Assembly (NCBI RefSeq): GCF_009707485.1
Contig: NZ_CP046121.1
Location: 1,178,001-1,242,000 of the forward strand
Length of the DNA: 64,000 nucleotides
Source of the DNA: Nostocoides sp. HKS02
GTDB taxonomy: Bacteria; Actinomycetota; Actinomycetes; Actinomycetales; Dermatophilaceae
Reading direction: 5' to 3'
Part shown: positions 3 to 63,768 of the stretch, piece after piece
Numbering within the stretch: position 1 is the stretch's first letter
How the letters are laid out: each line of letters starts with the position of its first letter
Position numbers and translations under genes: made by a program
The notes under the pieces: model-generated
What the model was told of the DNA's origin: nothing
What the model saw: the letters and a program-made list of their open reading frames with translations, nothing else
Databases searched by the model: none

Positions 3-1328
3 GCCGCCGCACTCGCGCCGCACGTCCGCGCCGTCGCCTCGAAGGACCGCCCGATGGTCGGTCACTTCACCGATGCCGAGGTGGTCCTGGAGTTCCTCGC
101 CCACGAGAAGCTCGCCCACCTCGCCGAGCTCGGCACCTCCTGCCCCGACCACTTCCTGCGCACCAAGGTCAAGCCCCTGGTCGTCGACGTCCCCGCGGAC
201 GCCAGCGTCGAGGACACCGTCGCCCGGCTCGGCGAGCGGCACGCGGCATACCGTGAGGACTACCAGGCTTACTACGACCGCCATGCGACGCCCAACTCCT
301 CCGCGATCCGTGGGGCCGACCCGGCGATCGTGCTCGTGCCCGGGGTCGGGATGTTCTCCTTCGGCAAGGACAAGCAGACTGCGCGGGTCGCCGGAGAGTT
401 CTACGTCAACGCCATCAACGTCATGCGCGGCGCCGAGTCGGTCTCGACGTACTCCCCCATCGACGAGTCCGAGAAGTTCCGGATCGAGTACTGGGCGCTC
501 GAGGAGGCCAAGCTGGCCCGCCTGCCCAAGCCCCGCTCCCACGCCGGCCGGATCGCCCTGGTGACCGGCGCCGCCTCCGGCATCGGCAAGGCGATCGCCA
601 CCCGCCTCGCGGCAGAGGGTGCCTGCGTCGTCATCGCCGACCTCGACCTCGCCAAGGCCCAGGACGCGGCGGCCGAGCTGGGCACCGCCGATGTCGCCGT
701 CGGAGTGCAGGCCAACGTCACCGACGCCGCGCAGGTGCAGGCTGCCGTGGACGCGGCCCTGCTCGCCTTCGGCGGACTCGACCTGCTGGTCAACAACGCT
801 GGTCTGTCGATCTCCAAGCCCCTGCTGGAGACCACCGAGGCCGACTGGGACCTGCAGCACGACGTCATGGCCAAGGGCAGCTTCCTCATGGCCAAGGCCG
901 CGGCGAAGGCGATGATCGACCAGAAGCTCGGCGGCGACATCGTGTACATCTCCTCCAAGAACTCCGTGTTCGCCGGTCCCAACAACATCGCCTACAGCGC
1001 CGTGAAGGCCGACCAGGCCCACCAGGTGCGCCTGCTGGCCGCCGAGCTCGGCGAGTACGGCATCAAGGTCAACGGCATCAACCCCGACGGGGTGGTCCGC
1101 GGTAGCGGCATCTTCTCCAGCGGGTGGGGTGCCAAGCGCGCCGCTGTCTACGGCGTGCCGGAGGAGGAGCTGGGGGCCTACTACGCGCAGCGGACGCTGC
1201 TCAAGCGCGAGGTGCTGCCCGACCACGTGGCCAATGCCGCAGCCCTGATCACCTCGGACGAGTTCAGCCACACCACCGGGCTGCACATCCCAGTCGACGC
1301 CGGCGTTGCCGCGGCCTTCCTGCGATAG
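3..1328 (+). CDS. rhaD: Bifunctional rhamnulose-1-phosphate aldolase / short-chain dehydrogenase (C-terminal part)
   Basis: The reading frame is open at the window edge, so only the last ~440 residues are visible; the family is usually about 680 residues. The visible part holds the end of the class II aldolase domain (LAHEKLAHLAELGTSCPDHF region), then an SDR domain from about residue 180 with a TGAASGIGKA cofactor loop, an NNAG motif and a YSAVK catalytic Tyr-Lys. In this family the aldolase splits L-rhamnulose-1-phosphate to dihydroxyacetone phosphate and L-lactaldehyde, and the SDR domain oxidises lactaldehyde to L-lactate. The kinase follows after 12 bases, in one operon. Function is inferred from domain order and context; confidence is high. 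Confidence 0.9.
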   Translation, partial: AAALAPHVRAVASKDRPMVGHFTDAEVVLEFLAHEKLAHLAELGTSCPDHFLRTKVKPLVVDVPADASVEDTVARLGERHAAYREDYQAYYDRHATPNSSAIRGADPAIVLVPGVGMFSFGKDKQTARVAGEFYVNAINVMRGAESVSTYSPIDESEKFRIEYWALEEAKLARLPKPRSHAGRIALVTGAASGIGKAIATRLAAEGACVVIADLDLAKAQDAAAELGTADVAVGVQANVTDAAQVQAAVDAALLAFGGLDLLVNNAGLSISKPLLETTEADWDLQHDVMAKGSFLMAKAAAKAMIDQKLGGDIVYISSKNSVFAGPNNIAYSAVKADQAHQVRLLAAELGEYGIKVNGINPDGVVRGSGIFSSGWGAKRAAVYGVPEEELGAYYAQRTLLKREVLPDHVANAAALITSDEFSHTTGLHIPVDAGVAAAFLR

Positions 1329-1340
1329 TCGGACCGGGCA

Positions 1341-2762
1341 ATGACAGCACGGGTGTTCGGCGCCATCGACATCGGCGCCTCCGGTGGCCGCGTCATGGCC
1401 GGCGTGGTCCATCGGGACGCGACCACGCTGCACACCGTGCACCGCTTCCCCAATGGCGCACTGCACCGTGACGGCCACCTCCGCTGGGACCTCACCGCCC
1501 TGTTCGCCGAGGTGCTGACCGGGCTGCGCGCCCTCGCGCGGGGCTTCCCGGAGGTGGAGTCGGTCGGCATCGACACCTGGGCGGTCGACTACGGGCTGCT
1601 TGACAGCGACGGTGCGCTGCTCGCCGAGCCGGTGTCCTACCGGGACACCAGGAGCGACGCAGCGGTGCCCCGCGTGCACGAACGCGTGAGCCGCGACGCC
1701 CTGTATGCCGTGAACGGGCTCCAGTTCCTGCCCTTCAACACCCTGTACCAGCTGGAGGCCGAGCGCGAGTCCCCGTTGTGGGACAAGGCAGCTCACCTCG
1801 TCCTGATCCCCGACCTCCTCGCGTACTGGCTCACCGGTGCCCTGGCGACCGAGGCCACCAACGCCTCGACCACCGGCCTCGTCGACGTGCGCACCGGGCA
1901 GTGGTCCACGCAGCTCCTGGACGACCTCGCGATCCCGCCCGCCCTGCTGCCGCCCCTCGAGCAGCCAGGGACGATCAGGGGTCGCCTCCTGCCCGCGGTC
2001 CTCGACCAGACGGGACTGTCGCCCAGAACCGTCGTCACCACCGTGGGCTCGCACGACACCGCCTCGGCGGTGGTCGGCGTCCCCGCCACGAGCTCGCGGT
2101 TCGCCTACGTCTCCAGCGGCACCTGGTCGCTCGTGGGGCTCGAGCTCGACAAGCCGGTCCTGACCGCCGAGAGCCAGCAGGCCAACTTCACCCACGAGGG
2201 CGGTGTCGACGGACGGATCCGCTTCCTGCGCAACGTCGGCGGCCTCTGGCTGCTCCAGGAGTCGCTGCGCGACTGGGCGGCGACAGGTCGACCGTTCACC
2301 GCCGCGGACCTCCTCGGCGAAGCCGAGGCCCTCCCCGCGGGCGGCCCGGTCGTCGATGTCGACGACCCAACCTTCATTCCTCCAGACGACATGCCGGCAC
2401 GGATCAGCGCAGCAGCCGTCTCGGCCGGGCTCGCACCCCCGAGTACCCCGGCCCAGACGGTGCGCTGCATCCTCGACTCGCTCGCGACGGCATACGCCCG
2501 GACGGTCCGGCAGGCGACCACGCTGGCCCAGCAGGACGCCGACGTGATCCACATCGTCGGCGGCGGTTCGCAGAACGCCCTGCTGGGCCAGCTCACCGCC
2601 GACCTGTCAGAACTGCCGGTCACCGCAGGGCCGGTCGAGGCGACGGCCCTGGGCAACGTGCTCGTCCAGGCGCGGGCGGTGGGCGCCGCGCCCGCCACCC
2701 TTGAACAGATCCGGGCCGGTCTCGCCCGCACCCAGGCGGTCCGCCGGTACCGCCCGTCGTGA
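1341..2762 (+). CDS. rhaB: Rhamnulokinase, FGGY family
   Basis: This 473-residue protein has the FGGY kinase layout. The N-terminal phosphate loop is GAIDIGASGGRVM, the substrate region is GIDTWAVDYGLLD, VGSHDTASAV lies mid-protein, and an adenosine motif HIVGGGSQNALL is near residue 400. Length fits rhamnulokinases. It phosphorylates L-rhamnulose with ATP to make the substrate of the aldolase encoded just upstream. Other FGGY sugar kinases (xylulo-, fuculokinase) are possible from motifs alone, but the adjacent rhamnulose-1-phosphate aldolase fusion makes rhamnulokinase the best call. Confidence 0.9.
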   Translation: MTARVFGAIDIGASGGRVMAGVVHRDATTLHTVHRFPNGALHRDGHLRWDLTALFAEVLTGLRALARGFPEVESVGIDTWAVDYGLLDSDGALLAEPVSYRDTRSDAAVPRVHERVSRDALYAVNGLQFLPFNTLYQLEAERESPLWDKAAHLVLIPDLLAYWLTGALATEATNASTTGLVDVRTGQWSTQLLDDLAIPPALLPPLEQPGTIRGRLLPAVLDQTGLSPRTVVTTVGSHDTASAVVGVPATSSRFAYVSSGTWSLVGLELDKPVLTAESQQANFTHEGGVDGRIRFLRNVGGLWLLQESLRDWAATGRPFTAADLLGEAEALPAGGPVVDVDDPTFIPPDDMPARISAAAVSAGLAPPSTPAQTVRCILDSLATAYARTVRQATTLAQQDADVIHIVGGGSQNALLGQLTADLSELPVTAGPVEATALGNVLVQARAVGAAPATLEQIRAGLARTQAVRRYRPS

Positions 2763-4625: not shown

Positions 4626-6145
4626 GCACCTTCCTGGGTATGCCGCGTGGCTGGGCCCCGGGTCCCGCCGGTGTGCGTGGTCCGGCCGCCGACACCGGGG
4701 TCGGTCAGCTGAGCGGTGACCGGTCGTTCCCCGCCGCGGCACACGACGCGCTCGCGGACACCCGGCTGCGGGCCAACCTGGCGCATGCCACCTCCACGAT
4801 CCGCGGCAAGCGCGCCCAGGTCGTCGCCGAGGTACCGGACTGGGAGGCGCTGCGTGATGCGGGGTCGGCGATCAAGGCCGACGCGATGGCCTGCCTGCCC
4901 GAGCTTCTCGAACAGCTCGAGGCCGCAGTGGTAGCCCGTGGCGGGGTGGTGCACTGGGCCCGCGATGCCGCGGAGGCGAACGCGATCGTGGTCGACCTGG
5001 TCAAGGCCACCGGCGCCGACGAGGTCGTCAAGGTCAAGTCGATGGCGACCCAGGAGATCGGGCTCAACGAGGCGCTCGACGCCGCCGGCATCACCCCCCA
5101 CGAGACCGACCTCGCCGAGCTCATCGTCCAGCTCGGGCGCGACAAGCCGTCGCACATCCTCGTGCCGGCGATCCACCGCGGCCGGGCCGAGATCCGCGAG
5201 ATCTTCGCGCGGGAGATGCCCGGCGTCGACCCGACCCTGACCGACGACCCGGCCGCGCTCGCGGCCGCAGCCCGCACCCATCTGCGCGAGGTGTTCCTGC
5301 GCGCCCGTGTGGCCGTGTCGGGTGCGAACTTCGCGGTCGCCGAGACCGGCACCCTGACCGTGGTCGAGTCCGAGGGCAACGGCCGGATGTGCCTGACCCT
5401 GCCCGAGGTCCTGATCACGGTGATGGGCATCGAGAAGGTCATCCCCACCTGGCGCGACCTGGAGGTCTTCCTCCAGCTACTCCCTCGCTCCTCCACAGGC
5501 GAGCGGATGAACCCCTACACCTCCACGTGGACCGGCGTGGTCCCAGGCGACGGGCCGCAAGAGTTCCACCTGGTGCTGCTCGACAACGGCCGCACCCGCG
5601 CCCTGGCCGACGAGCTCGGCCGGACCGCCCTGCACTGCATCCGCTGCTCGGCCTGCCTGAACGTCTGCCCTGTCTACGAACGCACCGGCGGCCATGCGTA
5701 CGGCTCGGTCTACCCCGGCCCGATCGGCGCGATCCTCACGCCTCTGCTGACCGGCCTGACCGGGGGCGACGACCCCAACGACTCGCTGCCCTACGCCTCC
5801 AGCCTCTGCGGCGCCTGCTACGACGTCTGCCCCGTGAAGATCAACATCCCCGACATCCTCGTCCAGCTGCGCGCCGAACACACCGAGGCCCACGCCGACA
5901 CCCATCGGCTGCCCAGCCCGGAAGCCGCCGCGATGAAGGCTGCCGCGTGGGTGATGGCCGACGACGGGCGCTTCGCGAAGGCGGGCCGGGCTGCGGGCTG
6001 GGCACGACACGGCATACGCGACGGCAAACCAGTCCTGCCGCTGCCGCCGCCCCTGAACGGGTGGACCGCCTCTCGGGACGCACCTGCCCTGCCCACGGAG
6101 ACCTTCCGCGACTGGTGGGACCGCACCCGCAAGGCGCCGCAGTGA
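4622..6145 (+). CDS. lutB: L-lactate utilisation protein B, 4Fe-4S ferredoxin-type subunit
   Basis: The GTG at the lutA stop gives 507 residues (about 470-500 is usual). The N-terminal LUD domain (RGKRAQVVAEVPDWEALRD region) precedes two 4Fe-4S motifs, CIRCSACLNVCPVYE near residue 340 and CGACYDVCPVKIN near residue 400. A longer upstream reading through lutA would be non-homologous. The protein is the electron-transfer core of lactate oxidation. Start and stop overlap the neighbours by four bases, which indicates translational coupling across lutA-lutB-lutC. Confidence 0.93.
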   Translation: MSTFLGMPRGWAPGPAGVRGPAADTGVGQLSGDRSFPAAAHDALADTRLRANLAHATSTIRGKRAQVVAEVPDWEALRDAGSAIKADAMACLPELLEQLEAAVVARGGVVHWARDAAEANAIVVDLVKATGADEVVKVKSMATQEIGLNEALDAAGITPHETDLAELIVQLGRDKPSHILVPAIHRGRAEIREIFAREMPGVDPTLTDDPAALAAAARTHLREVFLRARVAVSGANFAVAETGTLTVVESEGNGRMCLTLPEVLITVMGIEKVIPTWRDLEVFLQLLPRSSTGERMNPYTSTWTGVVPGDGPQEFHLVLLDNGRTRALADELGRTALHCIRCSACLNVCPVYERTGGHAYGSVYPGPIGAILTPLLTGLTGGDDPNDSLPYASSLCGACYDVCPVKINIPDILVQLRAEHTEAHADTHRLPSPEAAAMKAAAWVMADDGRFAKAGRAAGWARHGIRDGKPVLPLPPPLNGWTASRDAPALPTETFRDWWDRTRKAPQ

Positions 6146-6948: not shown

Positions 6949-7063
6949 GGCACCACAACGACGCGGCGGTGGTCATGGGTATGCCGCACCGGTGTCCAGA
7001 GCGCGTGGCGAGGCGAGTCGGGCCCGAACGGTCGATCCGGCCCTCGTCCGTTCGGCCGAGCCG

Positions 7064-8259: not shown

Positions 8260-8949
8260 TCATCTCGGGCTCGAAGGCGTTGTTCCATCAAGGAGCGGTA
8301 TGCCGGTCAGCTCGCGAAGGCGTGCGACCTCGACCCCGAACACCTCGCGGACCACGACGCCCTCAGGGGCGATCAGGAAGACGGCGAGGTCGGTGTAGAC
8401 CCGGCTCACGCACGACACCCCGGTGAGCGGGTAGGTGCACTCGGGCACGAGCTTGGGGGCACCGTCGCGAGCGAGCAAGTTCATCATGACGAACGTCTGC
8501 TTGGCCCCGAGGGCGAGGTCCATGGCGCCCCCGACAGCGGGGATGTCACCGGGCTTGCCGGTGTGCCAGTTGGCGAGGTCGCCGGTCGCCGAGACCTGGT
8601 AGGCGCCGAGGACGCAGACGTCGAGGTGGCCGCCACGCATCATCGCGAACGAGTCGGCATGGTGGAAGTACGACGCCCCTGGGAGCTCGGTGACAGGCAC
8701 CTTGCCCGCGTTGATGAGGTCGGCGTCCACCTCGTCACCGTGCGCCTCTGGACCCATGCCCAGCATGCCGTTCTCGGTGTGCAGCATGACCGCGCCCTCG
8801 GGACTCAGGTGGTTGCCGACCTTGGTGGGCAAGCCGATCCCGAGGTTGACGAACGAGCCGTGCGGGATGTCTCGTGCGACCAAGGCGGCGAGGGAGTCCT
8901 GGTCCAGGCCCGCGTGAACCGGGACGGCTCGTCCCTGCGCCGGGCTCAC
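8260..8949 (-). CDS. pcaJ: 3-oxoadipate CoA-transferase subunit B
   Basis: The GTG overlapping the pcaI stop gives 229 residues, the expected size. The segment GLPTKVGNHL followed by HTENGMLGMGP contains the conserved glutamate (in ENG) of the beta subunit of class I CoA-transferases. With PcaI it activates 3-oxoadipate using succinyl-CoA. A longer in-frame reading through pcaI is a non-homologous artefact. It is the seventh gene of the pca operon; no thiolase (pcaF) follows, so the last step must be encoded elsewhere. Confidence 0.92.
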   Translation of the reverse strand: MSPAQGRAVPVHAGLDQDSLAALVARDIPHGSFVNLGIGLPTKVGNHLSPEGAVMLHTENGMLGMGPEAHGDEVDADLINAGKVPVTELPGASYFHHADSFAMMRGGHLDVCVLGAYQVSATGDLANWHTGKPGDIPAVGGAMDLALGAKQTFVMMNLLARDGAPKLVPECTYPLTGVSCVSRVYTDLAVFLIAPEGVVVREVFGVEVARLRELTGIPLLDGTTPSSPR

Positions 8950-9610: not shown

Positions 9611-10021
9611 TCAGTCCCGACCCTCGGCAACGCCGTCGAGTCCTTCGAAGACACCCCGCGCCACGGCATACCCATGGTTGGCGACCGGCACGCCGCAGTA
9701 GACGGCGCTCTGCAGGATCACCTCACCGATCTCCTCGTCGCTCAGGCCGTTCGTGCGAGCAGCCTTGACGTGCATGGCGAACTCGTCCCAGTGACCCAGC
9801 GCGAGGAGGGCGCTCAGCGTGGCGACGCTGCGCATGCGGCGGTCCAGCCCGGGCCGGGTCCAGACACTCCCCCAGGCGTAGCGCGTGATGAGCTCCTGGA
9901 AGTCCTCGGTGAAGGCCGTGGCCGTCGCCTGGGCGCGGTCGACGTGCTCGTCGCCGAGCACCTCGCGGCGCACGGCGAGGCCCGCGGCATACGGGTCGGG
10001 GCGGTCGGTCTGGTCAGGCAC
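9611..10021 (-). CDS. pcaC: 4-carboxymuconolactone decarboxylase
   Basis: The GTG start overlapping the 3' end of pcaD gives 136 residues, matching PcaC. Recognisable segments are the YAWGSVWTRPGLD and LLALGHWDEFAMHVKAA regions, and the active-site region with EVILQSAVYCGVP (Cys and His positions typical of the AhpD-like fold). It decarboxylates 4-carboxymuconolactone to the enol-lactone. Many actinobacteria fuse this domain to PcaD as PcaL; here the two are separate genes. Confidence 0.93.
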   Translation of the reverse strand: MPDQTDRPDPYAAGLAVRREVLGDEHVDRAQATATAFTEDFQELITRYAWGSVWTRPGLDRRMRSVATLSALLALGHWDEFAMHVKAARTNGLSDEEIGEVILQSAVYCGVPVANHGYAVARGVFEGLDGVAEGRD

Positions 10022-10808
10022 GGGAGCCCTCCTCGAGGTGGTGGAGCAGCAGGTATGCCGTGCCCGAGGGGTCCTCGGCCGGCGGCAGGTGGGCACAGCC
10101 GGCCATGACGTGCAGCCGGGCACCGGGCGCGGCCGCGGCGGTGGCCGTGGCCAGCTCGACGGTCACCACCGGGTCGTGCTCGCCCGGGGCCACCACAAGC
10201 GGCACCGCTACCTGGTCGAGGCGCGCCCGGAGGTCGAAGTCCGCCAAGGCCTCGCACGCGAGTGAGTAGGACTCGGCATCCGCATCGGAGAGCGAGAGCA
10301 GGAGCCGGTTCGCGGTGGCCGGGTCGCGGTCGACGAAGCCTGCGGCAAACCAGCGCTGCGCCGACCCGGCAACCATGACGGGTGTGCCGGCCCGGCGCAC
10401 CAGTGCGGCCCGGTCGCGCCAGGCGTCCGGCTCGGAAATCTTCGCGGCCGAGGCGAAGCACCCGACGGCGGCGAACGGACCTGGGTCGATGGCAAGCTCG
10501 AGACCAACGGCGCCCGCGAGTGAGACGCCGGCATACGAGACCGGGCGGGACCCACCGCTCGCGACCGTGGCGCCGATCCGGCGCACCTCGGCGGCGAGCT
10601 CGGCCACGCTGAACGGCGCCGTGGCGGGCCGGCTTCGGCCGTGGCCGGGCAGGTCCCACCCGAATACCTCGAACCGCTCGCTCAGCAGGCTCGCAGCGGC
10701 CCCCCAGAGGGCCTCGACCGACGTGCCCAACGAGGGCCCGACGACGAGAACCTCTGCGCAGGTCGGCGACCCGGCGAGGCGGGTGATGGCCAGCTGTCCC
10801 TCAACCAT
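10014..10808 (-). CDS. pcaD: 3-oxoadipate enol-lactonase
   Basis: The chosen ATG gives 264 residues; longer readings add an unrelated arginine-rich leader. It is an alpha/beta hydrolase with the oxyanion region VGPSLGTS, a GVSLAG nucleophile elbow (Ser near residue 98), an Asp in GEHDPV and a His in GCAHLPP. It hydrolyses beta-ketoadipate enol-lactone to 3-oxoadipate. It overlaps pcaB by eight bases upstream and pcaC by eight bases downstream. Confidence 0.92.
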   Translation of the reverse strand: MVEGQLAITRLAGSPTCAEVLVVGPSLGTSVEALWGAAASLLSERFEVFGWDLPGHGRSRPATAPFSVAELAAEVRRIGATVASGGSRPVSYAGVSLAGAVGLELAIDPGPFAAVGCFASAAKISEPDAWRDRAALVRRAGTPVMVAGSAQRWFAAGFVDRDPATANRLLLSLSDADAESYSLACEALADFDLRARLDQVAVPLVVAPGEHDPVVTVELATATAAAAPGARLHVMAGCAHLPPAEDPSGTAYLLLHHLEEGSRA

Positions 10809-12012
10809 GCCGGGGACCGTCCTTCGGGAGCCGGGCGAGGACGTGGTCGACGAACTGCCCGGTCGCGCCGAGGTAGTCCTGCGGGGTGCCACCGCCACCA
10901 CGTTCCGCCAGCAACGAGTCCGCCGCCGCGACCACCCGGGCCTGCATGACGACGGCATCGACCTCGAGCCCGCTCGCCAGCTCGGCAGCCTGCGAGGTGG
11001 CCGTCACGGTGAGCTCGAGGAGCCGCCGCAGCGCGGGCCACTCGGAGTGCCAGGCGCCATCGGGGCGCTCGTCGACGGCCTGCCCCGCGGCGAGGTGCAG
11101 CTGGGCACCGAGCAGGGGGGCCTGGAGCGCGGCGCTGCGGACCAGGACGCTCAGGACCGGGTTGCGCTTGTGCGGCATCGTCGACGAACCGCCACGGCCG
11201 GCCACCGCGCCCTCACGGACCTCCGCGATCTCCGGGCGCGACAGCAGGGCCACATCGGTGGCCACGACGCCGACCGCGTCGCACGCCCCGACGAGGGCGT
11301 CGCCCAGCCGGGTGACCGGCGTCCGCGTCGTGTGCCAGGGCAGGCCAGGCCACACCAGGGCGAGCTCGTCGGCGAAGGCCCGGGCGACCGCCACCGGGTC
11401 GCCCGCGACCTCGGCAACGAGGGAGAGCGTGCCGCCGGCTCCCCCGCACTGGACCGGCAGGCGGTCCAGGACGTCCTCGACCTGCTCGAGTGCATCGAGC
11501 ACTCCCGAGAGCCACTGGGACGCCTTGAGGCCGAAGGTGATCGGGACGGCATACTGCGTGAGCGTCCGCCCGGCCATCACGGTGCCGCGATGCGTCTGCG
11601 CCAGCTGCCCCAACGCGCGCGCCGCTGCCGCGAGGTCCTCCCGGATGCGCGTGAGGGCATCGCGGGCGAGCAGGACGAGCGCGGTGTCGAGCACATCCTG
11701 GCTGGTCAGGCCGCGGTGGATCAGGGTCGAGACGCGGGGCTCCCGCACGCTGTCGCGCAGCAGCTGGACGAGCGGGACCACCGGGTTGCCGGCAGCTTCG
11801 GTATCGGCTCGCAGCCGGACCAGGTCGACGTCGAGCGACGAGACGGCCGCCGCGGCCATCTCGGCGTCGTCGGGGTTGATCGCGCCGACGGAGGCCAGCG
11901 CGCGCAGCCACCCGACCTCGACGCGCACCATCGCGGCCAACAGGGCGGCGTCGTCGGCGACACCCGACGCCCGGCCGGACCCGGGCTCGAGCAGCCCGTT
12001 CGCGGGGCTCAT
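10801..12012 (-). CDS. pcaB: 3-carboxy-cis,cis-muconate cycloisomerase
   Basis: The 403-residue protein belongs to the fumarase/aspartase superfamily. The signature loop GSSTMPHKRNP near residue 270 holds the catalytic Ser, and HRGLTSQDVLDTA carries the first conserved His/Ser region. PcaB lactonises 3-carboxymuconate to 4-carboxymuconolactone. It is shorter than Pseudomonas PcaB (about 450) but within the actinobacterial range. The start overlaps the pcaG stop by four bases. Confidence 0.92.
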   Translation of the reverse strand: MSPANGLLEPGSGRASGVADDAALLAAMVRVEVGWLRALASVGAINPDDAEMAAAAVSSLDVDLVRLRADTEAAGNPVVPLVQLLRDSVREPRVSTLIHRGLTSQDVLDTALVLLARDALTRIREDLAAAARALGQLAQTHRGTVMAGRTLTQYAVPITFGLKASQWLSGVLDALEQVEDVLDRLPVQCGGAGGTLSLVAEVAGDPVAVARAFADELALVWPGLPWHTTRTPVTRLGDALVGACDAVGVVATDVALLSRPEIAEVREGAVAGRGGSSTMPHKRNPVLSVLVRSAALQAPLLGAQLHLAAGQAVDERPDGAWHSEWPALRRLLELTVTATSQAAELASGLEVDAVVMQARVVAAADSLLAERGGGGTPQDYLGATGQFVDHVLARLPKDGPRHG

Positions 12013-12590: not shown

Positions 12591-13350
12591 CGTCGTCCTC
12601 CCGCTCCACCGGCGTCGCATGGCTGCCCGTGAGGACGACGTCCCAGCGGTAGCCCGTCGCCCACTCGTGCTGCGTCAGGTCGTGGTCGTACGTCGCGACC
12701 AGCAGCTCGCGCGCGGCGGGGTCGGTGATGGACTGGTAGATCGGGTCGAGCGCGAACAGCGGGTCGCCCGGGAAGTACATCTGCGTGACGAGGCGCTGGG
12801 TGAACTCACGCCCGAACAGCGAGAAGTGGATGTGGGCCGGGCGCCAGGCGTTGTGGTGGTTGCGCCACGGGTACGGCCCCGGCTTGATCGTCGTGAAGCG
12901 GTAGACGCCGTCACCGTCGGTCAGGCAGCGCCCCATCCCGGTGAAGTGCGGGTCGAGGGGGGCCGGGTGCTGGTCGCGCTGGTGCACGTAGCGCCCGGCG
13001 GCGTTGGCCTGCCACACCTCGACGAGCTGGTGGCGGACCGGCCGCCCGTCGCCGTCGATGATCCGCCCGGTGACGACGATCCGCTCGCCCAGCGGGTCGC
13101 CGCCTCGCGCAATGGTGAGGTCCGCCTCGAGCGGGCTCACGTCTGAGTGCCCGAAGACCGGGGCCACGAGCTCGGCGCCCTCGGGATCCACCCGCCAGAG
13201 CGCCTTGGTGGGGTGGCGCAGGACCGAGCTGCGGTATGCCGGGAAGTCCACCTGCGGCTGTGGGTCGCCCGGGCGCGCCTCGCGGTGGGCCAGCGCGATC
13301 TCCTCGCTCACCCGGGACTGCGGGTCGAGGCCGGCGTGCGTCGTCGTCAC
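12583..13350 (-). CDS. pcaH: Protocatechuate 3,4-dioxygenase beta subunit
   Basis: The GTG start gives 255 residues. The iron-binding set is visible: Tyr in GVYRFTTIKPGPYPW and Tyr/His ligands in NAWRPAHIHFSLFG. The N-terminal YRSSVLRHPTKAL segment is typical of PcaH. First gene of the operon pcaHGBDCIJ-pobA, 68 bases from the divergent IclR gene with a palindrome between them, so transcription is probably controlled by that regulator and induced by protocatechuate or a pathway intermediate. Confidence 0.94.
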   Translation of the reverse strand: MTTTHAGLDPQSRVSEEIALAHREARPGDPQPQVDFPAYRSSVLRHPTKALWRVDPEGAELVAPVFGHSDVSPLEADLTIARGGDPLGERIVVTGRIIDGDGRPVRHQLVEVWQANAAGRYVHQRDQHPAPLDPHFTGMGRCLTDGDGVYRFTTIKPGPYPWRNHHNAWRPAHIHFSLFGREFTQRLVTQMYFPGDPLFALDPIYQSITDPAARELLVATYDHDLTQHEWATGYRWDVVLTGSHATPVEREDDDA

Positions 13351-26518: not shown

Positions 26519-26534
26519 TCGGTATGCCGCGCCG

Positions 26535-38396: not shown

Positions 38397-38406
38397 GCCC
38401 TGAGGT

Positions 38407-52817: not shown

Positions 52818-53714
52818 TCAGAGCTCGAACCGCACGCCCGTGAGCTCTTCGCTGACGGTCCACAGTCGCCCGGCCAGGTCCTCGTCGGCCGCCAGCGGGC
52901 TGAGCCTCGCGGTGCCCACGCCGCCGCGGACCTCGCCGCGCCCCTGCGGCCCGGTGTACGACCCCGGTTCGGCCACGGTCGCGGCATACAGCACCGACTC
53001 GGCGCCGCCCCGCGAGCCCGGCAGCACCAGGCGCATGAGCGGCGGAGCGAACGTGCGGACGACCCAGCGGGCACCCATGCCGTCGGTGCTGGCCACGAGG
53101 TTGGTGACGGCGACACCGGGATGGGCGGCCGTCGAGGTCAGCCGCGAGCCCGCAGCGGTCGCGCGCCGGTGCAGCTCGAGCGCGAAGAGGAGGTTGGCCA
53201 GCTTGGACCGGCCGTAGGAGGCACGGGGGTCGTAGTCGGCGACGTCGTTCGCCTCGACGACTCGCGCGTCGCCCTGGTTGTGGGCGATCGAGGCAACGGT
53301 CGTGACCCGCGGCGAGGGGGCGGCCAGGAGGGCAGGGAGCAACCGCGCGGTGAGGGCGAAGTGGCCGAGGTGGTTGGTCCCGAACTGCAGCTCGTGCCCG
53401 TCGACGGTCGTGCGCCGAGCCGGGGGCGCCATCACGCCGGCATTGTTGACGAGCAGGTCGACCCGGCCGCTGACCCGCTCGGCGAAGTCGCGCACGGAGT
53501 CGAGCGAGGCCAGGTCGAGGGCCTCCACCGCGGTGCTGCCGGCGATCCGGGCTGCGGCGACCTGCCCCGCTGCGACGTTGCGCACCGCAAGGATGACGTG
53601 CGCGCCGTGCTCGGCCAGTGTCTGCGCCTCGACGAACCCGATGCCCGAGTTGGCCCCGGTGACGATCGCGGTCGTGCCGGTGAGGTCACCGATCTCGGCA
53701 GGCTTCCAGGCCAT
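52818..53714 (-). CDS. SDR-family oxidoreductase (retinol-dehydrogenase-like)
   Basis: The ATG at MAWKPAEIGDLTG, after GAGGAGT, gives 298 residues. Motifs: TGANSGIGFVEA cofactor loop, NNAGVMAPP, and YGRSKLANLLFA with the catalytic Tyr and Lys. The closest pattern is the actinobacterial group related to retinol/protochlorophyllide-type SDRs. Probably NADP-linked; substrate unknown. It lies alone and is read opposite to the following membrane-protein gene. Confidence 0.87.
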   Translation of the reverse strand: MAWKPAEIGDLTGTTAIVTGANSGIGFVEAQTLAEHGAHVILAVRNVAAGQVAAARIAGSTAVEALDLASLDSVRDFAERVSGRVDLLVNNAGVMAPPARRTTVDGHELQFGTNHLGHFALTARLLPALLAAPSPRVTTVASIAHNQGDARVVEANDVADYDPRASYGRSKLANLLFALELHRRATAAGSRLTSTAAHPGVAVTNLVASTDGMGARWVVRTFAPPLMRLVLPGSRGGAESVLYAATVAEPGSYTGPQGRGEVRGGVGTARLSPLAADEDLAGRLWTVSEELTGVRFEL

Positions 53715-53900: not shown

Positions 53901-54683
53901 GTGACCAGATCCGAACAGCTCCTCGACACAGCCCGACCAGGTCTGACCACCGCGCTGAGCAAGGTGCCCGAGGTCACGGCGATCTTCTGGGTGACCAAGG
54001 TGCTCACCACCGGCATGGGCGAGACGGCCTCCGACTTCCTCGTGCGACGGATCAACCCCTTCGTCGCCGTCGCCCTCGGGGCGGTGGCCTTCGCGGTCGC
54101 CCTGAGCCTGCAGTTCCGGGTGCGCCGTTACGTGCCGTGGGTCTACTGGCTGGCGGTGTCGATGGTCAGCGTGTTCGGCACCATGGCTGCGGACGTCGTG
54201 CACATCGGCTTCGGCGTGCCGTATGCCGTGAGCACCGTCTTCTTCGCCGTCGCCCTGGCAGCGGTGTTCGGCGTCTGGTACGCCACCGAGCGCACGCTGT
54301 CGATCCACAGCATCACCACGGTCCGGCGCGAGCTCTTCTACTGGCTGACGGTGCTGACGACCTTCGCGCTCGGCACAGCCGCCGGAGACCTCACGGCCTC
54401 GACCATGCGGCTCGGCTACTTCGCCTCAGGTGTCCTGTTCGCCGTCGTGATCGCGGTGCCGGCGATCGCCCACCGCAGCCTCGGGCTCAACGCCATCGTG
54501 GCGTTCTGGTTCGCGTACATCGTCACCCGACCGCTCGGAGCCTCGTTCGCGGACTGGCTGGGCGTGCCCGCGAGCCGACGGGGGCTGGACCTCGGCACCG
54601 GGCCGGTCACGCTGGCCCTGGCCGTGGTCATCGCGGTCCTGGTCGGATACCTGTCGCGCACGACGGAAGCCACCGCATCGTGA
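53901..54683 (+). CDS. Membrane protein with three KVP/FW repeats (COG4705-like)
   Basis: The GTG start gives 260 residues with about seven hydrophobic segments. A repeated motif stands out: FWVTKVLTTGMGETASDFL, FYWLTVLTTFALGTAAGDL and FWFAYIVTRPLGASFADWL. This matches an uncharacterised membrane-anchored protein group (COG4705-like). The stop overlaps the GTG of the MscS-like gene, so the two are co-translated. Function unknown. Confidence 0.75.
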   Translation: MTRSEQLLDTARPGLTTALSKVPEVTAIFWVTKVLTTGMGETASDFLVRRINPFVAVALGAVAFAVALSLQFRVRRYVPWVYWLAVSMVSVFGTMAADVVHIGFGVPYAVSTVFFAVALAAVFGVWYATERTLSIHSITTVRRELFYWLTVLTTFALGTAAGDLTASTMRLGYFASGVLFAVVIAVPAIAHRSLGLNAIVAFWFAYIVTRPLGASFADWLGVPASRRGLDLGTGPVTLALAVVIAVLVGYLSRTTEATAS

Positions 54684-56217: not shown

Positions 56218-57483
56218 TCAGTGCCGTATGCCGTGTCCTGCCTCCGTGGGAGGCGCACCGTCGGGGTGGGTGAACGCGAACCACGTGAGGATCCCGAAGA
56301 GCCACGCAGCGCCAAGCACCAGCGTCAGCAGGAGGATGTGCAGCCACGGCGGCGGCGCCAGCCCGCCGATGAGGAGGGCAACCGCCGCCGCCGCGACCAG
56401 CGCCGTGGAGGCCGAGCGGTAGACCGGCGCGAGCTCGCGCCAGTCGGCCAGCGAGGTCGCCACCACCACCAGCGCCAGGACGCCCACCGCCACGGACACC
56501 GAGAGCACCATGGGCGCCGGTGCCGGCGCGTGGCCGGCTGACGCGTGCTGGACCATGCTCACCATCACCGCGCCGGTCGCTGCGATCGTCATCGTCACCG
56601 GCAGGTGGCCGACGAGCCAGCGCGACAGCGCTCCGCGCTCCGAGCGCACCCGGCGCGCACCGATGAGGTCGAAGTAGCTCCACCAGTACGCGAACCCGAT
56701 CCCCAGCCCGAGGATCCCGGTGGCCACCGCGATCGGGGAACGTCCATCTTCCGCGATGCCGTTCACGACGCCGACGACCACCTCGCCGAGGACAATGATC
56801 GTGAAGAGGTCGAACCGCTCGATCATCGACTCGCTCGCATTGCTGCTGGTGTCCCTCGTCGCCCCGCTGCGCCAGTCCAGGACGACCAAGCCGACGAGCC
56901 AACCGAGGACCACGAGCGCCCACACGGTCAGGCGCGTGCCACCCGGCAGGAGCGCGCTCAGGCCGATGATCGCGGCCGAGGCCACGACCCCGACGATGTA
57001 CGGCGTCGTCGTGGAGCGGAACGACGGGTCGTCACGCAGGCGTACCGAGAACCAGAGCCAGCCGAGGAGGAACAGGAACGCGCTGTAGATGACGGCGAAG
57101 GCCGGACCGTCGCCCGCCGTCGCGGCGCCGGTGAACACGGCGAGGAGCGCCAGGATGCCCATCTGCAGGAACACGTAGCTCCGGGTCCGCCCCTCGGCAC
57201 GGCCGTGCAGGTCGTGATAGACGGCCCCGTTGATCCAGGCGAGCCAGATCAGCCCGAAGACGATGGCGAACCGGCCCGCCCCAGCCCAGGTCACGTCGCC
57301 CGCCAGGTGGTGAGCGGCCTGCGAGACGACGACGACGTAGACCAGGTCGTAGAAGAGCTCGAGGAAGCTCACCTCGCGTCCCTCGATGACCTCGCCGTGC
57401 GCCCGAGGCGGCTTCCAGAAATGGCGCCGGAACGCCGCCGCGGACTCCCAGGTGAGGCGGGTGCTCGCCTGTCTGGCCGGCAT
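56218..57483 (-). CDS. Low temperature requirement protein A (LtrA) family
   Basis: The ATG at MPARQASTRLTW gives 421 residues. LtrA features: EVSFLELFYDLVYVVVVSQAAHHL near residue 45, WINGAVYHDLHGR and about ten membrane helices ending in FGILTWFAFTHPDG. Members are membrane proteins of unclear function, sometimes linked to cold growth or stress. It is read opposite to the HtrA-like protease. Confidence 0.9.
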   Translation of the reverse strand: MPARQASTRLTWESAAAFRRHFWKPPRAHGEVIEGREVSFLELFYDLVYVVVVSQAAHHLAGDVTWAGAGRFAIVFGLIWLAWINGAVYHDLHGRAEGRTRSYVFLQMGILALLAVFTGAATAGDGPAFAVIYSAFLFLLGWLWFSVRLRDDPSFRSTTTPYIVGVVASAAIIGLSALLPGGTRLTVWALVVLGWLVGLVVLDWRSGATRDTSSNASESMIERFDLFTIIVLGEVVVGVVNGIAEDGRSPIAVATGILGLGIGFAYWWSYFDLIGARRVRSERGALSRWLVGHLPVTMTIAATGAVMVSMVQHASAGHAPAPAPMVLSVSVAVGVLALVVVATSLADWRELAPVYRSASTALVAAAAVALLIGGLAPPPWLHILLLTLVLGAAWLFGILTWFAFTHPDGAPPTEAGHGIRH

Positions 57484-57633
57484 ACGTGCTCCTCCCCCTC
57501 GCCTCCCGGTCAAGGAGATCGTTACCCCGATGATGGACCATCCGAGGTGGCGGCGACACGGGTCGGCAGTGCCCACGATTTCGCCCTCGGTGAACCGTGG
57601 AATCCGGCCGGCCCCGCCGCTCGTTGCATCGCC

Positions 57634-59088: not shown

Positions 59089-61251
59089 TCACTGCGTCCC
59101 GGACGGCCCGTCGCCGGTCGCCGGGTCGCCCGCGAGGGCCTCGGTCAGCAGGGTGACGAGGGCCTCCAGCTGGACGTCGGCCGAGGACCCGACCTCCTCG
59201 TCCGAACCATCCAGGGCCCGGGCTGCGAGCCCGGCCTTGGCGTCGATGAGCTGGGCGATCTTCGGGTCGATGGTCTGGGCGGCGATGATCCGCCATGCGG
59301 TCACTGGCTCGGTCTGGCCGATCCGGTGGACCCGGTCGATGGCCTGAGTCTGTTCCGCCGAGGTCCAGGACAGCTCGGCGAGCACGACGTTCGACGCGAC
59401 CTGGAGGTTGAGCCCCACGCCGGCCGCGGTGAGTGAGCACACGACGACGGCGATGGCGGGGTCGGTGAGGAACGCCTGGATGTTGGCCTGACGCGCCTTC
59501 GGGGTCTGGTCCCCGCGGATCGACGCGTAGCCGATCCCCCGCTTGGCGAAGGTCTGCTCGGCCACATCCATGACGTCGATGTGCTTGGCGAAGAAGACGA
59601 CCTTGCCGACGTTGCGAGCCAGCTGGGCGGCATAGTCCGCGGCGAGGCCGGCCTTGGCCTGCCCGATCTGGCGCATCACCGTGAACACGTTGTCGCCGGT
59701 CTTGCCGGAGCCGTCGCCGTCGCGCTCCCACTTGGCGACCCGGCGGACCAGGTCGTGGTCGATGCCGTCGATGACCGTGGCCACCTTGCGGGTGGCCAGG
59801 GCCGACTCGTAGCGGGCGACCAGACGACGCGCCAGCTCCTGCTCGGCCGCACGGATCGAGCGCCCGGCCACGTCGTCCAGCTCGACCGGGAGGTCCGCGA
59901 CGCGGCGAGCGGGGATGTCGGCGGCGACGTCGACCTTGCGTCGTCGGACGATGCCGAGGTCGATGACACTGGCGCGCGCAGCGGTGTAGAACCCGGAGTC
60001 GGCCGGCGTCAGCCCGGTCTCCTCGAGAGCCGCCAGGAGGGCGCGCCGGGGCTTGGTGTCGTCGATCCAGCCGAGGAACTGCCAGATCGCCTTGAAGTCC
60101 TCGATGTCGTTGATGAGTGGAGTTCCGGTGAGGGCCATCAGGAGCGGGTTCGCGCTTCGCGCCCGGATGCGCTCTGACAGCTCGAGGACGTGCTGCGAGC
60201 GCTGCGACGACTTGTTCTTGATGAGGTGCGCCTCGTCGACGACCATGCCGCGGAAGCCGTGGCTCCCCAGCCACCCCACGTGGCGGTCGAGGAGCTCGTA
60301 GTTGACGATCACGATGTCGGCGAAGCCGTCGATCGTCTCGCCGTCGCCATGGATCACGGTCGATGCGCGGCGCGGCGTCCAGAGCTCGGCTTCGTGCGCC
60401 CAGTTCGCCTTGACGACGTTCGGGACGGCCACCAGCAGGGGGAACGCGTCGGCGGCCTCGGCGGCCAGGAGCGCCTGCGCGGTCTTGCCGAGGCCCGGCT
60501 CGTCGGCGAGCAGGAACGTGCGATGGCCGGCTGCGGCGGCGGCCACGACCTGGGCCTGGTGCGGCATGAGCTCCAGCCCACGGATGCCGTGGAGCAGGTC
60601 CGCGGACTCGGGCAGCGGCATGCACGTGGCATCGCCGCCGTACTCGAAGGCGCGGAACAAGGGCGTCAACAGCTCCCAGCCGCCGAGCCGGTTGGTCGTC
60701 GCCCGACGTGCGGGCACCGCCGAGAAGTCGGGCGCGAGGAACGGGTTGGCCAGCTGTCGGGCGATCACCGTCTGCGGGACCACGCGGCGCGTGGGTGCGG
60801 TCGACCCGGGGCGGACCTCGGGCACCGGCTCGGGTTCCGGCTCGGGCTCGCGCCCAGCCGCACGGAGCATGTCGTTCTTGAGGCTCACGGCATCGGACGA
60901 GACGACAGCGTCATCGGCCAGCAGGGCCAGCAGTGAGGTGTCCCGAGCGGCCGTCTTCGCCAGGATCGTGGCAATGCCGTCGAGTCGCGTCAGCACCCCG
61001 GTCCGCTCCGCCTCGGGCGTGGACGTGTCGGCCTTGACCCGGGCGCGCTCCTCGCGCATGAGCAGGGCGACGACCTGGTATGCCGTGCGGCCGCCCGGCC
61101 GGACCTTGCCCCGCTGCGCGGCGGCCTCGACCTGCCGGACCGCCTTGGCCAGGACCGGGATGATGCCCTCATCGTCGCGCGCGCGGCCGCGATGCTGGTC
61201 GCGGGGCGTGGTGCGCGGCGCGCCGGAACGGCGCGGAGCTCGCTGTGCCAA
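59089..61251 (-). CDS. SNF2-family DNA helicase
   Basis: A TTG start after AGGAGAAGG gives 720 residues; the longer reading upstream lacks a site. Helicase motifs are complete: Walker A DEPGLGKTAQ, Walker B VVDEAHLIKNK, motif III LTGTPLIND, and motifs V/VI in the second lobe (SLTAAGVGLNLQVASNVVLAE, DRVHRIGQTEPV). The N-terminal 200 residues are Pro/Glu-rich (EPEPEPEPVPE) and without known domain. It remodels or unwinds DNA; no methylase, nuclease or phage-defence partner is adjacent. Confidence 0.88.
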   Translation of the reverse strand: MAQRAPRRSGAPRTTPRDQHRGRARDDEGIIPVLAKAVRQVEAAAQRGKVRPGGRTAYQVVALLMREERARVKADTSTPEAERTGVLTRLDGIATILAKTAARDTSLLALLADDAVVSSDAVSLKNDMLRAAGREPEPEPEPVPEVRPGSTAPTRRVVPQTVIARQLANPFLAPDFSAVPARRATTNRLGGWELLTPLFRAFEYGGDATCMPLPESADLLHGIRGLELMPHQAQVVAAAAAGHRTFLLADEPGLGKTAQALLAAEAADAFPLLVAVPNVVKANWAHEAELWTPRRASTVIHGDGETIDGFADIVIVNYELLDRHVGWLGSHGFRGMVVDEAHLIKNKSSQRSQHVLELSERIRARSANPLLMALTGTPLINDIEDFKAIWQFLGWIDDTKPRRALLAALEETGLTPADSGFYTAARASVIDLGIVRRRKVDVAADIPARRVADLPVELDDVAGRSIRAAEQELARRLVARYESALATRKVATVIDGIDHDLVRRVAKWERDGDGSGKTGDNVFTVMRQIGQAKAGLAADYAAQLARNVGKVVFFAKHIDVMDVAEQTFAKRGIGYASIRGDQTPKARQANIQAFLTDPAIAVVVCSLTAAGVGLNLQVASNVVLAELSWTSAEQTQAIDRVHRIGQTEPVTAWRIIAAQTIDPKIAQLIDAKAGLAARALDGSDEEVGSSADVQLEALVTLLTEALAGDPATGDGPSGTQ

Positions 61252-61272
61252 GCGGTTCCTTCTCCTGAGTCG

Positions 61273-61293: not shown

Positions 61294-61495
61294 GGTGCGG
61301 GGTGCACCGAACGTGAGGCGACGCGCAGGCTGCGCCCGGCCGCGGCATACCGGATCAAGTGCGGCCTCGCGCCAGGGACCAGACCCCGGCCCCCGTGTCG
61401 CTGATGCGTCCACGTCGAACGACGGGACACAGGGGCAAGCCTACGTGGTCCACCGCGCAGACGGGTACTGCCTCGCGGGTTTCCTCACCCGGGCG

Positions 61496-62728
61496 CTACC
61501 CGAGCTGATCGCGGCGCCGGGTCAGGTAGGCGATCTCGGCCGTGTTGCCCGCGAGCTCGATCGCCCTGTCGTAGGCCGCGCGGGACTGCCCGCTGCGGCC
61601 CAGCCGGCGCAGCAGGTCGGCGCGCGTCGCGTGGAAGGCGTGGTAGCCGGCCAACGGGCCTTCGAGACGGTCCACCGCCGCGAGCGCCACCTCCGGCCCG
61701 TCGAGCTCGGCGACGGCGATGGCCCGGTTGAGGGCGACGATCGGCGACGGATCGATGCGGACGAGCTGGTCATAGAGGACGACGACCTGCGACCAGTCGG
61801 TATCACGGGCGTCGCGGGCGGAGGTGTGGACGGCGTTGATCGCCGCGAGGATCTGGTATCGGCCAGGAGCTACCCCGGCTGCCAGCCGCTCCCGCACCAG
61901 CCGATGTCCCTCGGCCACCAGCGCCGCGTCCCAGGCCCCGCGGTCCTGCTCGTCGAGCCTGACCAGCTCGCCACGAGCCGAGACGCGGGCAGTGCGGCGG
62001 GCCTCGGTGAGCAGCATCAGGGCCAGCAGCCCGGTCACCTCACCATCGTCCGGCAGGAGGCTACGGATCAGGCGAGTCAGCCGGATCGCCTCGGAGGTCA
62101 GGTCCTGGCGCACGGGGTCGCTGTCCGGGCCGGTCGCAAGATAGCCCTCGTTGAAGACGAGGAAGAGGACCGCCAGCACGCCGGAGACGCGCGCCGGCAG
62201 GTCCTCGGCGGACGGCACCCGGTACGGGATGTGCGCCGCCTTGATCTTGGCCTTCGCGCGTGTGATGCGCTGCCCCATGGTCGCCTCCTGCACGAGGAAC
62301 GCGTGGGCGATCTCGGGCACGGTCAGACCGCCCACCATGCGCAGCGTCAGGGCCACGCGGGACTCCAGGGCGAGTGCGGGGTGGCAGCAGGTGAAGATCA
62401 GTCGGAGCCGTTCGTCGTCGATGGCGCCGAGAGGCTCGGGCGGCTCGTTGTCGTACCCCATCTGGGCCTGCTTCTGCTTGTCGTCACGCTTGTTCTCACG
62501 CCGGATCCGGTCGATGGCCTTGCGCTTCGCGGTGGTGGTCAGCCACGCGCCAGGGTTCGGCGGTATGCCGTCGACCGGCCAGCGCTCGACAGCGGTGGCG
62601 AACGCCTCGGCCGACGCCTCCTCGGCGATGTCGAGGTCGCCGAACCGTCTGGCCAGGGCGGCGACCACGCACGCCCACTCCTCGTGGTGCGCACGGGTGA
62701 TCGCGTCCTGGATGTCGCCGATGCTCAC
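61496..62728 (-). CDS. ECF-type RNA polymerase sigma factor with DUF6596 C-terminus
   Basis: The GTG start gives 410 residues. Sigma region 2 (FGDLDIAEEASAEAFATAVERWP) and region 4 (LTLRMVGGLTVPEIAHAFLV) are followed by a TPR-rich C-terminal half (GRYQILAAINAVHTSA, YDQLVRIDPSPIVALNRAIAVAELDGP). This matches the ECF42-like group. Such sigma factors are often paired with a DGPF/YCII protein; none is seen within the window. Confidence 0.88.
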   Translation of the reverse strand: MSIGDIQDAITRAHHEEWACVVAALARRFGDLDIAEEASAEAFATAVERWPVDGIPPNPGAWLTTTAKRKAIDRIRRENKRDDKQKQAQMGYDNEPPEPLGAIDDERLRLIFTCCHPALALESRVALTLRMVGGLTVPEIAHAFLVQEATMGQRITRAKAKIKAAHIPYRVPSAEDLPARVSGVLAVLFLVFNEGYLATGPDSDPVRQDLTSEAIRLTRLIRSLLPDDGEVTGLLALMLLTEARRTARVSARGELVRLDEQDRGAWDAALVAEGHRLVRERLAAGVAPGRYQILAAINAVHTSARDARDTDWSQVVVLYDQLVRIDPSPIVALNRAIAVAELDGPEVALAAVDRLEGPLAGYHAFHATRADLLRRLGRSGQSRAAYDRAIELAGNTAEIAYLTRRRDQLG

Positions 62729-62772
62729 ACCAGTTCTACGAACAACGGTGCTCCGATCCGACGCCGCCGGGC

Positions 62773-63768
62773 TCACGGCGTGGGGAAGAAGCCGGGGAAG
62801 GGGGGTACGGCGGCGGGGAGCATCGCGCCTTCGGGGACGGTGACGTTGCTGGGTGTGGCCCCGTCGATGAGCCGAAGCACCTTGGTCCAGGCCAGGTCCA
62901 GCCAGTGCATGACGAAGTCCAGCAACCACAGGACGAACCGCGTCACCATGGTCACCACGACCAGGGGCAGCACCGGGGGCGCGGTGAGAACACCCACCAC
63001 GCCGGCGCCGACCAGGCTCAGCAGCGCCGGCAGCGAGAACCTCACCGGCCCGCCAGCGGCTGGGCGTTCGAAGCTGCGGTAGACGAGCGCCACGAGCGAG
63101 ATCGTCGCCACGGCGATCATGATGCCGGTGTAGGGCTGGTTCGGACGAAGAGCGGTCGCCAGCTGCGCCAACCCCCACGCGATTCCTTGGGGGACCCAGT
63201 CGAGCCAGGACAGCCACGGCCAGATGGTGACCTTGTTGAGCAGGTCCGACACCGACACGAAGACATTGCTGGACTGGTGCAGCATGCTCACGATGATCCC
63301 GGCGAGGACGGCGACGCCGAGAGGCCGGAAACCGAACAGCCGCACCGCGCACCACATGATGTACCGCGTCACGACGCCCTGGTCGGCGTGCGCCTTGAGG
63401 GTGTGCCGGAACTGGTGGTCGGCATGCCGTCGCAGGTATGCCGTGCGCGCCCGTCCGCCGTTCCCGGCGGCCGCCTTGGACGCATCGCAGCGGACGTCGT
63501 GGAGGATCGCGGGCATGGTGTGCCGCCCGTAGCTGGCGATCAACCCCCAGAGGAACGGGGGGATGGATGCGAGGTCGGTGGAGGTGTCGAGGGCGACGCG
63601 TGAGTCCAGGTCGGGGACGCCCGGGGTGCGGTTCGCCCAGCCGAAGGCGTCCCCACAGGTGAAGGACGTCTTGGTCGAGGCGGACCCCAGCTGGGTGAGC
63701 CGCACGTCCTGCTTGGGGCTGGTGTCGTAGTCGTCCGGTTCCGGCCCGACGTGGTCGAAGAACGGCAT
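62773..63768 (-). CDS. DUF1353 protein with C-terminal membrane helices
   Basis: The ATG at MPFFDHVGPEPD gives 331 residues. The N-terminal 150 residues contain the DUF1353 pattern (DLASIPPFLWGLIASYGRHTMPAILHDVRCD). Four to five hydrophobic helices follow, then a Pro-rich tail. DUF1353 is of unknown function and occurs in phages and bacteria. The added membrane part suggests an envelope location. Confidence 0.75.
   Translation of the reverse strand: MPFFDHVGPEPDDYDTSPKQDVRLTQLGSASTKTSFTCGDAFGWANRTPGVPDLDSRVALDTSTDLASIPPFLWGLIASYGRHTMPAILHDVRCDASKAAAGNGGRARTAYLRRHADHQFRHTLKAHADQGVVTRYIMWCAVRLFGFRPLGVAVLAGIIVSMLHQSSNVFVSVSDLLNKVTIWPWLSWLDWVPQGIAWGLAQLATALRPNQPYTGIMIAVATISLVALVYRSFERPAAGGPVRFSLPALLSLVGAGVVGVLTAPPVLPLVVVTMVTRFVLWLLDFVMHWLDLAWTKVLRLIDGATPSNVTVPEGAMLPAAVPPFPGFFPTP

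Follow-up and report, generated by a model that had tools for sequence, protein, structure and literature searches.

The octamer GTATGCCG is present at 2537 copies in the genome of the actinobacterium Nostocoides sp. HKS02, and each DNA strand carries its own evenly spaced array of copies, a new finding. The word was studied from a stretch of 64,000 nucleotides of that genome (the window, C1:1178001-1242000). We propose that, in these Gram-positive bacteria, it belongs to a system resembling that of DNA uptake sequences and is read directionally, with DNA uptake as the presumed function; we put the probability of this reading at roughly 0.6.

Abundance and strand-specific spacing

GTATGCCG is non-palindromic (reverse complement CGGCATAC) and ranks first among the over-represented 8-mers of the window. 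There are 47 exact copies, 26 on the plus and 21 on the minus strand, the first at 244-251 and the last at 63436-63443, against a mean of 1.09 and a maximum of 5 in dinucleotide shuffles. The heptamer GTATGCC also occurs 47 times, and each occurrence extends to the full word, where an order-3 Markov model of the window predicts 5.1 heptamers and 2.3 octamers. An earlier note on the window had given about 47 copies, 26 and 21 by orientation, with nearly all heptamers extending to the octamer, about six heptamers and two octamers expected by chance and a copy every 1.36 kb or so; our counts bear all of this out, the measured density being one copy per 1.36 kb. No conserved base flanking the word was found in the window.

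The enrichment extends to the whole genome, a single contig of 3.48 Mb (G000; genomes are labelled G, genera g and sampled loci L). Counted by strand, its copies divide into 1273 forward and 1264 reverse, while the control word, GTATGCCG reversed, occurs 159 times (94 + 65). A 464-kb sample of the same genome, made up of the window plus twenty 20-kb stretches, holds 319 copies against 3.6 expected with the motif masked; one-mismatch variants number 360 against 232 expected. Seventeen of the 20 stretches carry 12-20 copies each, and the other three carry 2 (L071), 10 (L077) and 6 (L078). Strand counts are even per stretch (chi2 7.8, 21 degrees of freedom, window and 20 stretches).

Copies on the same strand keep their distance from one another, and copies on opposite strands do not. 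Same-strand pairs closer than 1 kb number 34 in the 464-kb sample against 103.6 +- 9.1 expected, whereas opposite-strand pairs number 120 against 112.9, opposite-strand neighbours being placed at random or slightly closer. Neighbouring copies switch strand 217 of 298 times, and along one strand successive copies lie about 2.4-2.5 kb apart (coefficient of variation 0.51-0.54). Compared with the 1853 8-mers that have 60-600 copies, the word stands out with a z of -6.8; words overlapping it reach -2.8 and the first unrelated word -2.3. The pattern recurs in 70 regions pooled from several genera (1.42 Mb, 847 copies), with 110 same-strand pairs closer than 1 kb against 252 expected and a deficit that fades near 1.5 kb. 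With the window's genome excluded, strand switches still occur at 293 of 451 neighbours (P 2e-10).

Genes, islands and convergent pairs

Gene calls come from a caller of our own based on codon usage; it scores 82% of the 464-kb sample as coding and overlooks some genes, bsaP for example. In the window, 41 of the 47 copies of GTATGCCG fall within called genes, as follows (coordinates, strand, context).

244..251, minus, in gene, antisense GCA-TAC
1703..1710, plus, in gene, sense TAT-GCC
2488..2495, minus, in gene, antisense GCA-TAC
4638..4645, plus, in gene, sense GGT-ATG-CCG
6010..6017, minus, in gene, antisense GGC-ATA
6979..6986, plus, outside called genes
8298..8305, plus, in gene, antisense GGC-ATA
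9664..9671, minus, in gene, sense TAT-GCC
9985..9992, minus, in gene, sense TAT-GCC
10053..10060, plus, in gene, antisense GCA-TAC
10529..10536, minus, in gene, sense TAT-GCC
11547..11554, minus, in gene, sense TAT-GCC
13234..13241, plus, in gene, antisense GCA-TAC
13552..13559, minus, in gene, antisense GCA-TAC
15560..15567, minus, in gene, sense TAT-GCC
15972..15979, plus, in gene, antisense GCA-TAC
18328..18335, plus, in gene, antisense GCA-TAC
18408..18415, minus, in gene, sense TAT-GCC
21167..21174, plus, in gene, sense TAT-GCC
22507..22514, plus, in gene, sense TAT-GCC
25258..25265, minus, in gene, antisense GGC-ATA
26522..26529, plus, outside called genes
28214..28221, plus, in gene, sense TAT-GCC
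28453..28460, minus, in gene, antisense GCA-TAC
30223..30230, plus, in gene, sense TAT-GCC
31779..31786, minus, in gene, antisense GCA-TAC
33442..33449, plus, in gene, sense TAT-GCC
33684..33691, minus, in gene, antisense GCA-TAC
35567..35574, plus, in gene, sense TAT-GCC
38405..38412, plus, contains the start codon of bsaP
39109..39116, minus, in gene, antisense GGC-ATA
39298..39305, plus, in gene, sense TAT-GCC
40903..40910, minus, in gene, antisense GGC-ATA
42956..42963, plus, in gene, antisense GCA-TAC
45072..45079, plus, in gene, antisense GGC-ATA
45231..45238, minus, in gene, sense TAT-GCC
46829..46836, plus, in gene, antisense GGC-ATA
47415..47422, plus, outside called genes
49978..49985, minus, in gene, antisense GCA-TAC
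52982..52989, minus, in gene, sense TAT-GCC
54221..54228, plus, in gene, sense TAT-GCC
56226..56233, plus, in gene, antisense GGC-ATA
57478..57485, minus, spans the start of a called gene
61078..61085, plus, in gene, antisense GCA-TAC
61343..61350, minus, outside called genes
62563..62570, plus, in gene, antisense GGC-ATA
63436..63443, plus, in gene, antisense GCA-TAC

The bsaP start codon is the ATG at 38407, and the 64-residue product is named BsaP by the NCBIfam model NF052237 (E 4e-25). The copy at 57478-57485 likely holds the start codon of a large minus-strand open reading frame (ORF), which found no match in NCBIfam and which we take, by eye, to be LtrA-like.

Over the 464-kb sample, called genes contain 261 copies, 56 lie between genes and 2 straddle a gene edge, and the density is about 0.68 per kb both inside and outside called genes. 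The coding copies divide by frame into 121 sense TAT-GCC, 97 antisense GCA-TAC, 26 antisense GGC-ATA and 17 others, so that the motif holds 121 of the 269 TAT codons and 26 of the 42 ATA codons. The earlier note was thus right that copies lie inside and between genes, that codon use is altered and that one copy contains the start of bsaP.

Two islands of 12.0 and 12.9 kb are free of the word, both picked by viewing motif-poor stretches and hence a one-sided test. The first (L077, 1-12008) carries an integrase and a TraG/TraD-like coupling protein; it has a tRNA at 11860-11931, and the first copy of the word lies about 80 bases past that tRNA. The second (L078, 1-12856) is of lower GC content and encodes an integrase of phage type and, divided between two ORFs, a Schlafen-type helicase. 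The motif-poor L071 encodes SpoIIE, HD-domain and HipA-like genes, nothing that would be diagnostic of an island.

Convergent pairs closer than 50 bp show a modest excess, 13 against 7.3 expected; the window contains none closer than 45 bp. Six such pairs were folded and gave long stems of -28 to -42 kcal/mol. Gene calls were available for three of them (L064, L072 and L073), and there the hairpin closely follows the 3' end of a called gene.

Distribution, dialects and turnover in one family

Strong enrichment of GTATGCCG is confined to one family among the sampled genomes (Knoellia, Terrabacter, Ornithinimicrobium and relatives). Across 396 genomes of the order, at least 600 copies occur in 22 of the 34 from the window's family, and other families have at most 180. 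Across 196 genomes of the class, the highest count beyond the family is 386, reached in a genome of 7.5 Mb where the reversed word has 176. Within the family, about 80 of 149 genomes hold at least 500 copies. The family takes in both Knoellia and Dermacoccus, judging by identical ComEC rows. Among the matches listed for named loci (80 of 234 relatives kept), Knoellia remsis, Phycicoccus elongatus, Humibacillus xanthopallidus, Terrabacter sp., Ornithinimicrobium sp. and five metagenome-assembled genomes are motif-dense, and the motif-less include Intrasporangium flavum, an uncultured Phycicoccus and Dermacoccus abyssi.

Copy number spans 625-3986 inside a single genus, several genera of the family have the word at background, and sister genera without it are of similar GC content. 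Sharp contrasts also occur within genera: in g127, G449 has 19 copies against 1062 and 3681 in G417 and G470, and in g2, G493 (89% completeness) has 37 against 1251-1660 in the others. These two genera offer the best comparisons for finding the gene that reads the word.

Related or substitute words are enriched in some of these genomes. G408 has 3135 copies of GAATGCCG (control 27) beside 1025 of GTATGCCG, and G436 has 730 beside 2311. GGATGCCG occurs 79 times in 80 kb of G418 against 8.5 expected, with no GTATGCCG there and with 22 same-strand pairs closer than 1 kb against 36.0 +- 6.0; it occurs 37 times in 40 kb of G411 against 4.9 expected, and in g10 it is enriched 3.7x (at most 2.6x in genomes with another main word), with no clear exclusion (20 against 23.0). 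GTACGCCG is possibly a further dialect: it is enriched 4.5x in G456 (g143) and 2.8x in G144 (g7) but also 2.5x in G413 (g123) and 2.2x in g2, and in g7 the overlapping CGTACGC shows exclusion (49 against 78.1). G414 has a weak GTATGCG signal, 17 against 2.1 expected. No clear word was seen in g3, g5, g14, g116 and g123, where 60-100 kb were viewed per genus.

A word that shares no core with GTATGCCG was found in two genera of the family. All 11 of their sampled genomes hold 1265-1939 copies of CGAAGGGGG with 7-41 of GTATGCCG, and the other genomes among the 149 hold at most 80 CGAAGGGGG each. In G185 (L057-L058, L091-L098) its convergent pairs lie 16-37 bp apart and it switches strand at 67 of 98 neighbours. 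On a tree of the single gene ComEC, with genera g2, g8 and g13 outside it, motif-bearing rows surround the motif-less rows and the CGAAGGGGG genus g4; losses of the motif and one replacement by CGAAGGGGG within the family are therefore likely, although the tree's own group test covers labelled rows only and is no evidence for either.

Individual sites are retained above background between close relatives. In 132 ordered pairs of 12 loci (the window's genus and g12, 79% identity; the pairs are not independent), 686 of 1201 sites (57%) were kept against 21% of background 8-mers. Between G000 and two motif-less g10 genomes, none of 13 sites was kept.

A proposed tag read with polarity, and its rivals

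The mutual exclusion of copies over about 1.5 kb, seen on the same strand and not between strands, suggests that the word is read with polarity. In the reading we favour, a surface receptor of the competence apparatus, perhaps part of a Tad/Flp pilus acting with ComEA-ComEC in this lineage, would bind the word in free DNA. Relatives' DNA would then be imported preferentially, the imported strands would recombine, and the word would spread and persist by molecular drive, selection or both. Each copy may permit about 1-2.5 kb of a single strand to be imported or recombined in one direction; within such a tract another copy of the same orientation would be redundant, and one of the opposite orientation would not. 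In Gram-positives one strand enters via ComEC with polarity, which could make orientation matter. Dialects and a replacement word would be expected because receptor and word should co-evolve, giving GAATGCCG, GGATGCCG and possibly GTACGCCG, or a different word, CGAAGGGGG. The fullest form of this proposal is an independently arisen actinobacterial uptake system in which copies of each orientation are spaced along one strand at roughly the length of an import or recombination tract, and in which the recognised word has changed by single-base steps and, in one lineage, given way entirely to another (GTATGCCG to CGAAGGGGG); we hold it more tentatively, at slightly less than an even chance.

The window's genome encodes ComEC, an adjoining ORF that looks ComEA-like by eye, and Tad-type T2SSF genes. 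In this it resembles the actinobacterium Micrococcus luteus, which has ComEA/ComEC and Tad/Flp genes and whose transformation requires the tad genes and comEC; no uptake word is described there, as far as the accessible part of that report goes (PMC4322843). Literature matches, mostly titles and abstract openings, included no uptake word for Actinobacteria among those listed.

The closest likeness is to the DNA uptake sequences (DUS) of the Neisseriaceae. Four hallmarks of DUS are found here: abundance, strand balance, terminator-like pairs and dialects. The motif-free islands agree with a fifth, depletion in acquired DNA, though in a one-sided test; orientation bias in genes is not seen. As here, DUS are short and asymmetric, occur in thousands of copies on both strands, in and between genes, and, in the portions of PMC3630211 and PMC2397512 available to us, form inverted pairs as terminators, differ as clade dialects and lie about 1.1-1.5 kb apart. 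Excerpts of the latter state that neisserial spacing agrees with conversion-tract length, about 1.1-1.7 kb, to which the 1.5-kb exclusion here is similar in size. DUS are also under-represented in the accessory genome, according to part of PMC5031613. The present word differs in belonging to another phylum, in being an 8-mer without a conserved flank, in its same-strand exclusion, in the lack of a PilM match and of any sense/antisense bias, and in having a counterpart, CGAAGGGGG, with no shared core; its function is proposed by analogy. In the 464-kb sample, 98 of the 319 copies are followed by T, which gives them the string ATGCCGT that also occurs in ATGCCGTCTGAA, the neisserial DUS; since CTG is the core of DUS, the overlap is probably a coincidence. 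The word is unrelated to the uptake signal sequence (USS) of the Pasteurellaceae, relative to which directionality is new.

Several results weigh against an uptake function. ComEC (PF03772) is present in 145 of 149 family genomes, motif-bearing and motif-less alike; the four that gave no match are fragmented drafts of 330-760 contigs (one of them 95% complete) with 341-1407 copies of the word. T2SSF is found in 27 of 27 family genomes; the distribution of competence genes therefore does not follow that of the motif. No PilM was found in these 27, so that a receptor of the ComP kind would have to use a different pilus. When the comEA-comEC locus and three Tad loci were compared, no gene emerged that motif genomes share and the others lack. 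ComEC of the window's genome lies in two overlapping frames (L068 8197-10598, G000 C1 about 1517000), through an assembly error or a lesion. It is also in two or three pieces in a few other genomes (e.g. G464, G465, G510). RecC (PF04257) runs inverse to the motif, with matches in 2 of 15 genomes carrying GTATGCCG (motif-A genomes; G005 and G263) and 10 of 12 others (Fisher P 0.0004, kinship uncorrected) and none found in G000, a pattern that might indicate end resection instead of uptake.

Other points on the same side concern the word itself. An orientation bias of uptake words inside genes has been reported (PMC2346458, known to us in part) and is absent here, with 135 copies sense and 124 antisense to the gene (P 0.53; quintiles P 0.23 and 0.54). 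According to the consulted section of PMC1939737, uptake does not depend on how the USS is oriented, and same-strand exclusion is for that reason not an expected hallmark. The exclusion is weak for CGAAGGGGG (21 against 28.8 +- 5.0; 6 against 9.9 +- 2.9), and none was seen for GGATGCCG in G411 (20 against 16.1) or for GTACGCCG in G456. Seven control words were kept in 8-43% of cases in the site comparison, the best of them near the motif. Retention was low between G000 and motif-bearing genomes outside its genus, 7 of 34 sites over six genomes (background 11-16%), from which it follows that sites turn over between genera while the word persists. Mobile genes were sought in the three motif-poor stretches only.

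The earlier note had preferred a likeness to uptake sequences over KOPS (FtsK-orienting polar sequences) or Chi. The likeness is upheld in part: copy number, strand balance, equal coding and non-coding density, islands, pairs and dialects speak for it, while no receptor was found and ComEC does not track the motif. KOPS are rejected by the balance of strands over the stretches. A RecBCD-Chi reading is unlikely, with RecC missing in 13 of 15 motif-A genomes, no strand bias and same-strand exclusion present. Chi of E. coli (GCTGGTGG) is likewise a short, asymmetric, over-represented octamer, but GTATGCCG is denser and RecC was not found in its genome.

The main rival, which we consider improbable, is a Chi-like hotspot for AdnAB, a word read on one strand by the unwinding enzyme and switching it to recombination. 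Same-strand exclusion suits such a polar reader, and directional reading would explain an independent array on each strand. The RecC counts suggest that AdnAB may be the main resection enzyme in motif-bearing genomes; however, two motif-A genomes have RecC and two motif-less genomes lack it. Chi itself behaves differently. In nine 50-kb stretches of E. coli (113 copies), same-strand pairs closer than 1 kb number 15 against 16.9 expected, with no deficit; Chi is about 3x sparser than GTATGCCG and strand-biased in most of the stretches (12:0 to 2:10, some near even), where the strand counts of GTATGCCG are even. Regulation of AdnAB by Chi is given as unknown as of 2016 in the part of PMC4824097 at hand.

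The earlier note had also allowed for a methylation target or a nucleoid-protein site, and neither is favoured because the word is non-palindromic and its exclusion strand-specific. A site for chromosome organisation or a nucleoid protein (loading of the SMC, or structural maintenance of chromosomes, complex; compaction; membrane attachment) that needs regular spacing is the less improbable of these two, if still doubtful. The even spacing and the two motif-free islands would agree with it, but the spacing is regular within a strand only, which a compaction protein binding duplex DNA would not yield, and the copy number ranges from 625 to 3986 in a single genus and falls to background in several genera. 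Methylation or another DNA modification has slender prospects. Such enrichment has a precedent in HIP1 (highly iterated palindrome 1) of cyanobacteria, and dialects could track methyltransferase specificity; the present word is not a HIP1-type palindrome, however, and a mark on duplex DNA gives no reason for exclusion in one orientation over 1.5 kb. A by-product of Tyr-Ala/Ala-Tyr codon-pair preference or of local base composition can be dismissed: although 218 of the 261 coding copies are TAT-GCC or GCA-TAC, Tyr-Ala preference leaves the GCA-TAC, GGC-ATA, other-frame and intergenic copies unexplained, density is equal outside called genes, 26 copies encode Gly-Ile with ATA, the genome otherwise avoids the codons TAT and GCA, copies on one strand exclude each other and sister genera of similar GC content lack the word.

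If the reader were AdnAB, the word would settle whether that enzyme has a Chi. If an uptake-like tag is the correct reading, its meaning is broader. Self-DNA tags for transformation were known from two Gram-negative families as of 2016, according to the excerpted text of PMC5031613, and the word would represent a third such system, of independent origin in high-GC Gram-positives that have neither an outer membrane nor a PilM-type pilus. The strand-specific exclusion would offer a statistical means of gauging how long the imported DNA is and with what polarity it enters, and the presence of the word would predict which environmental actinobacteria are naturally transformable.

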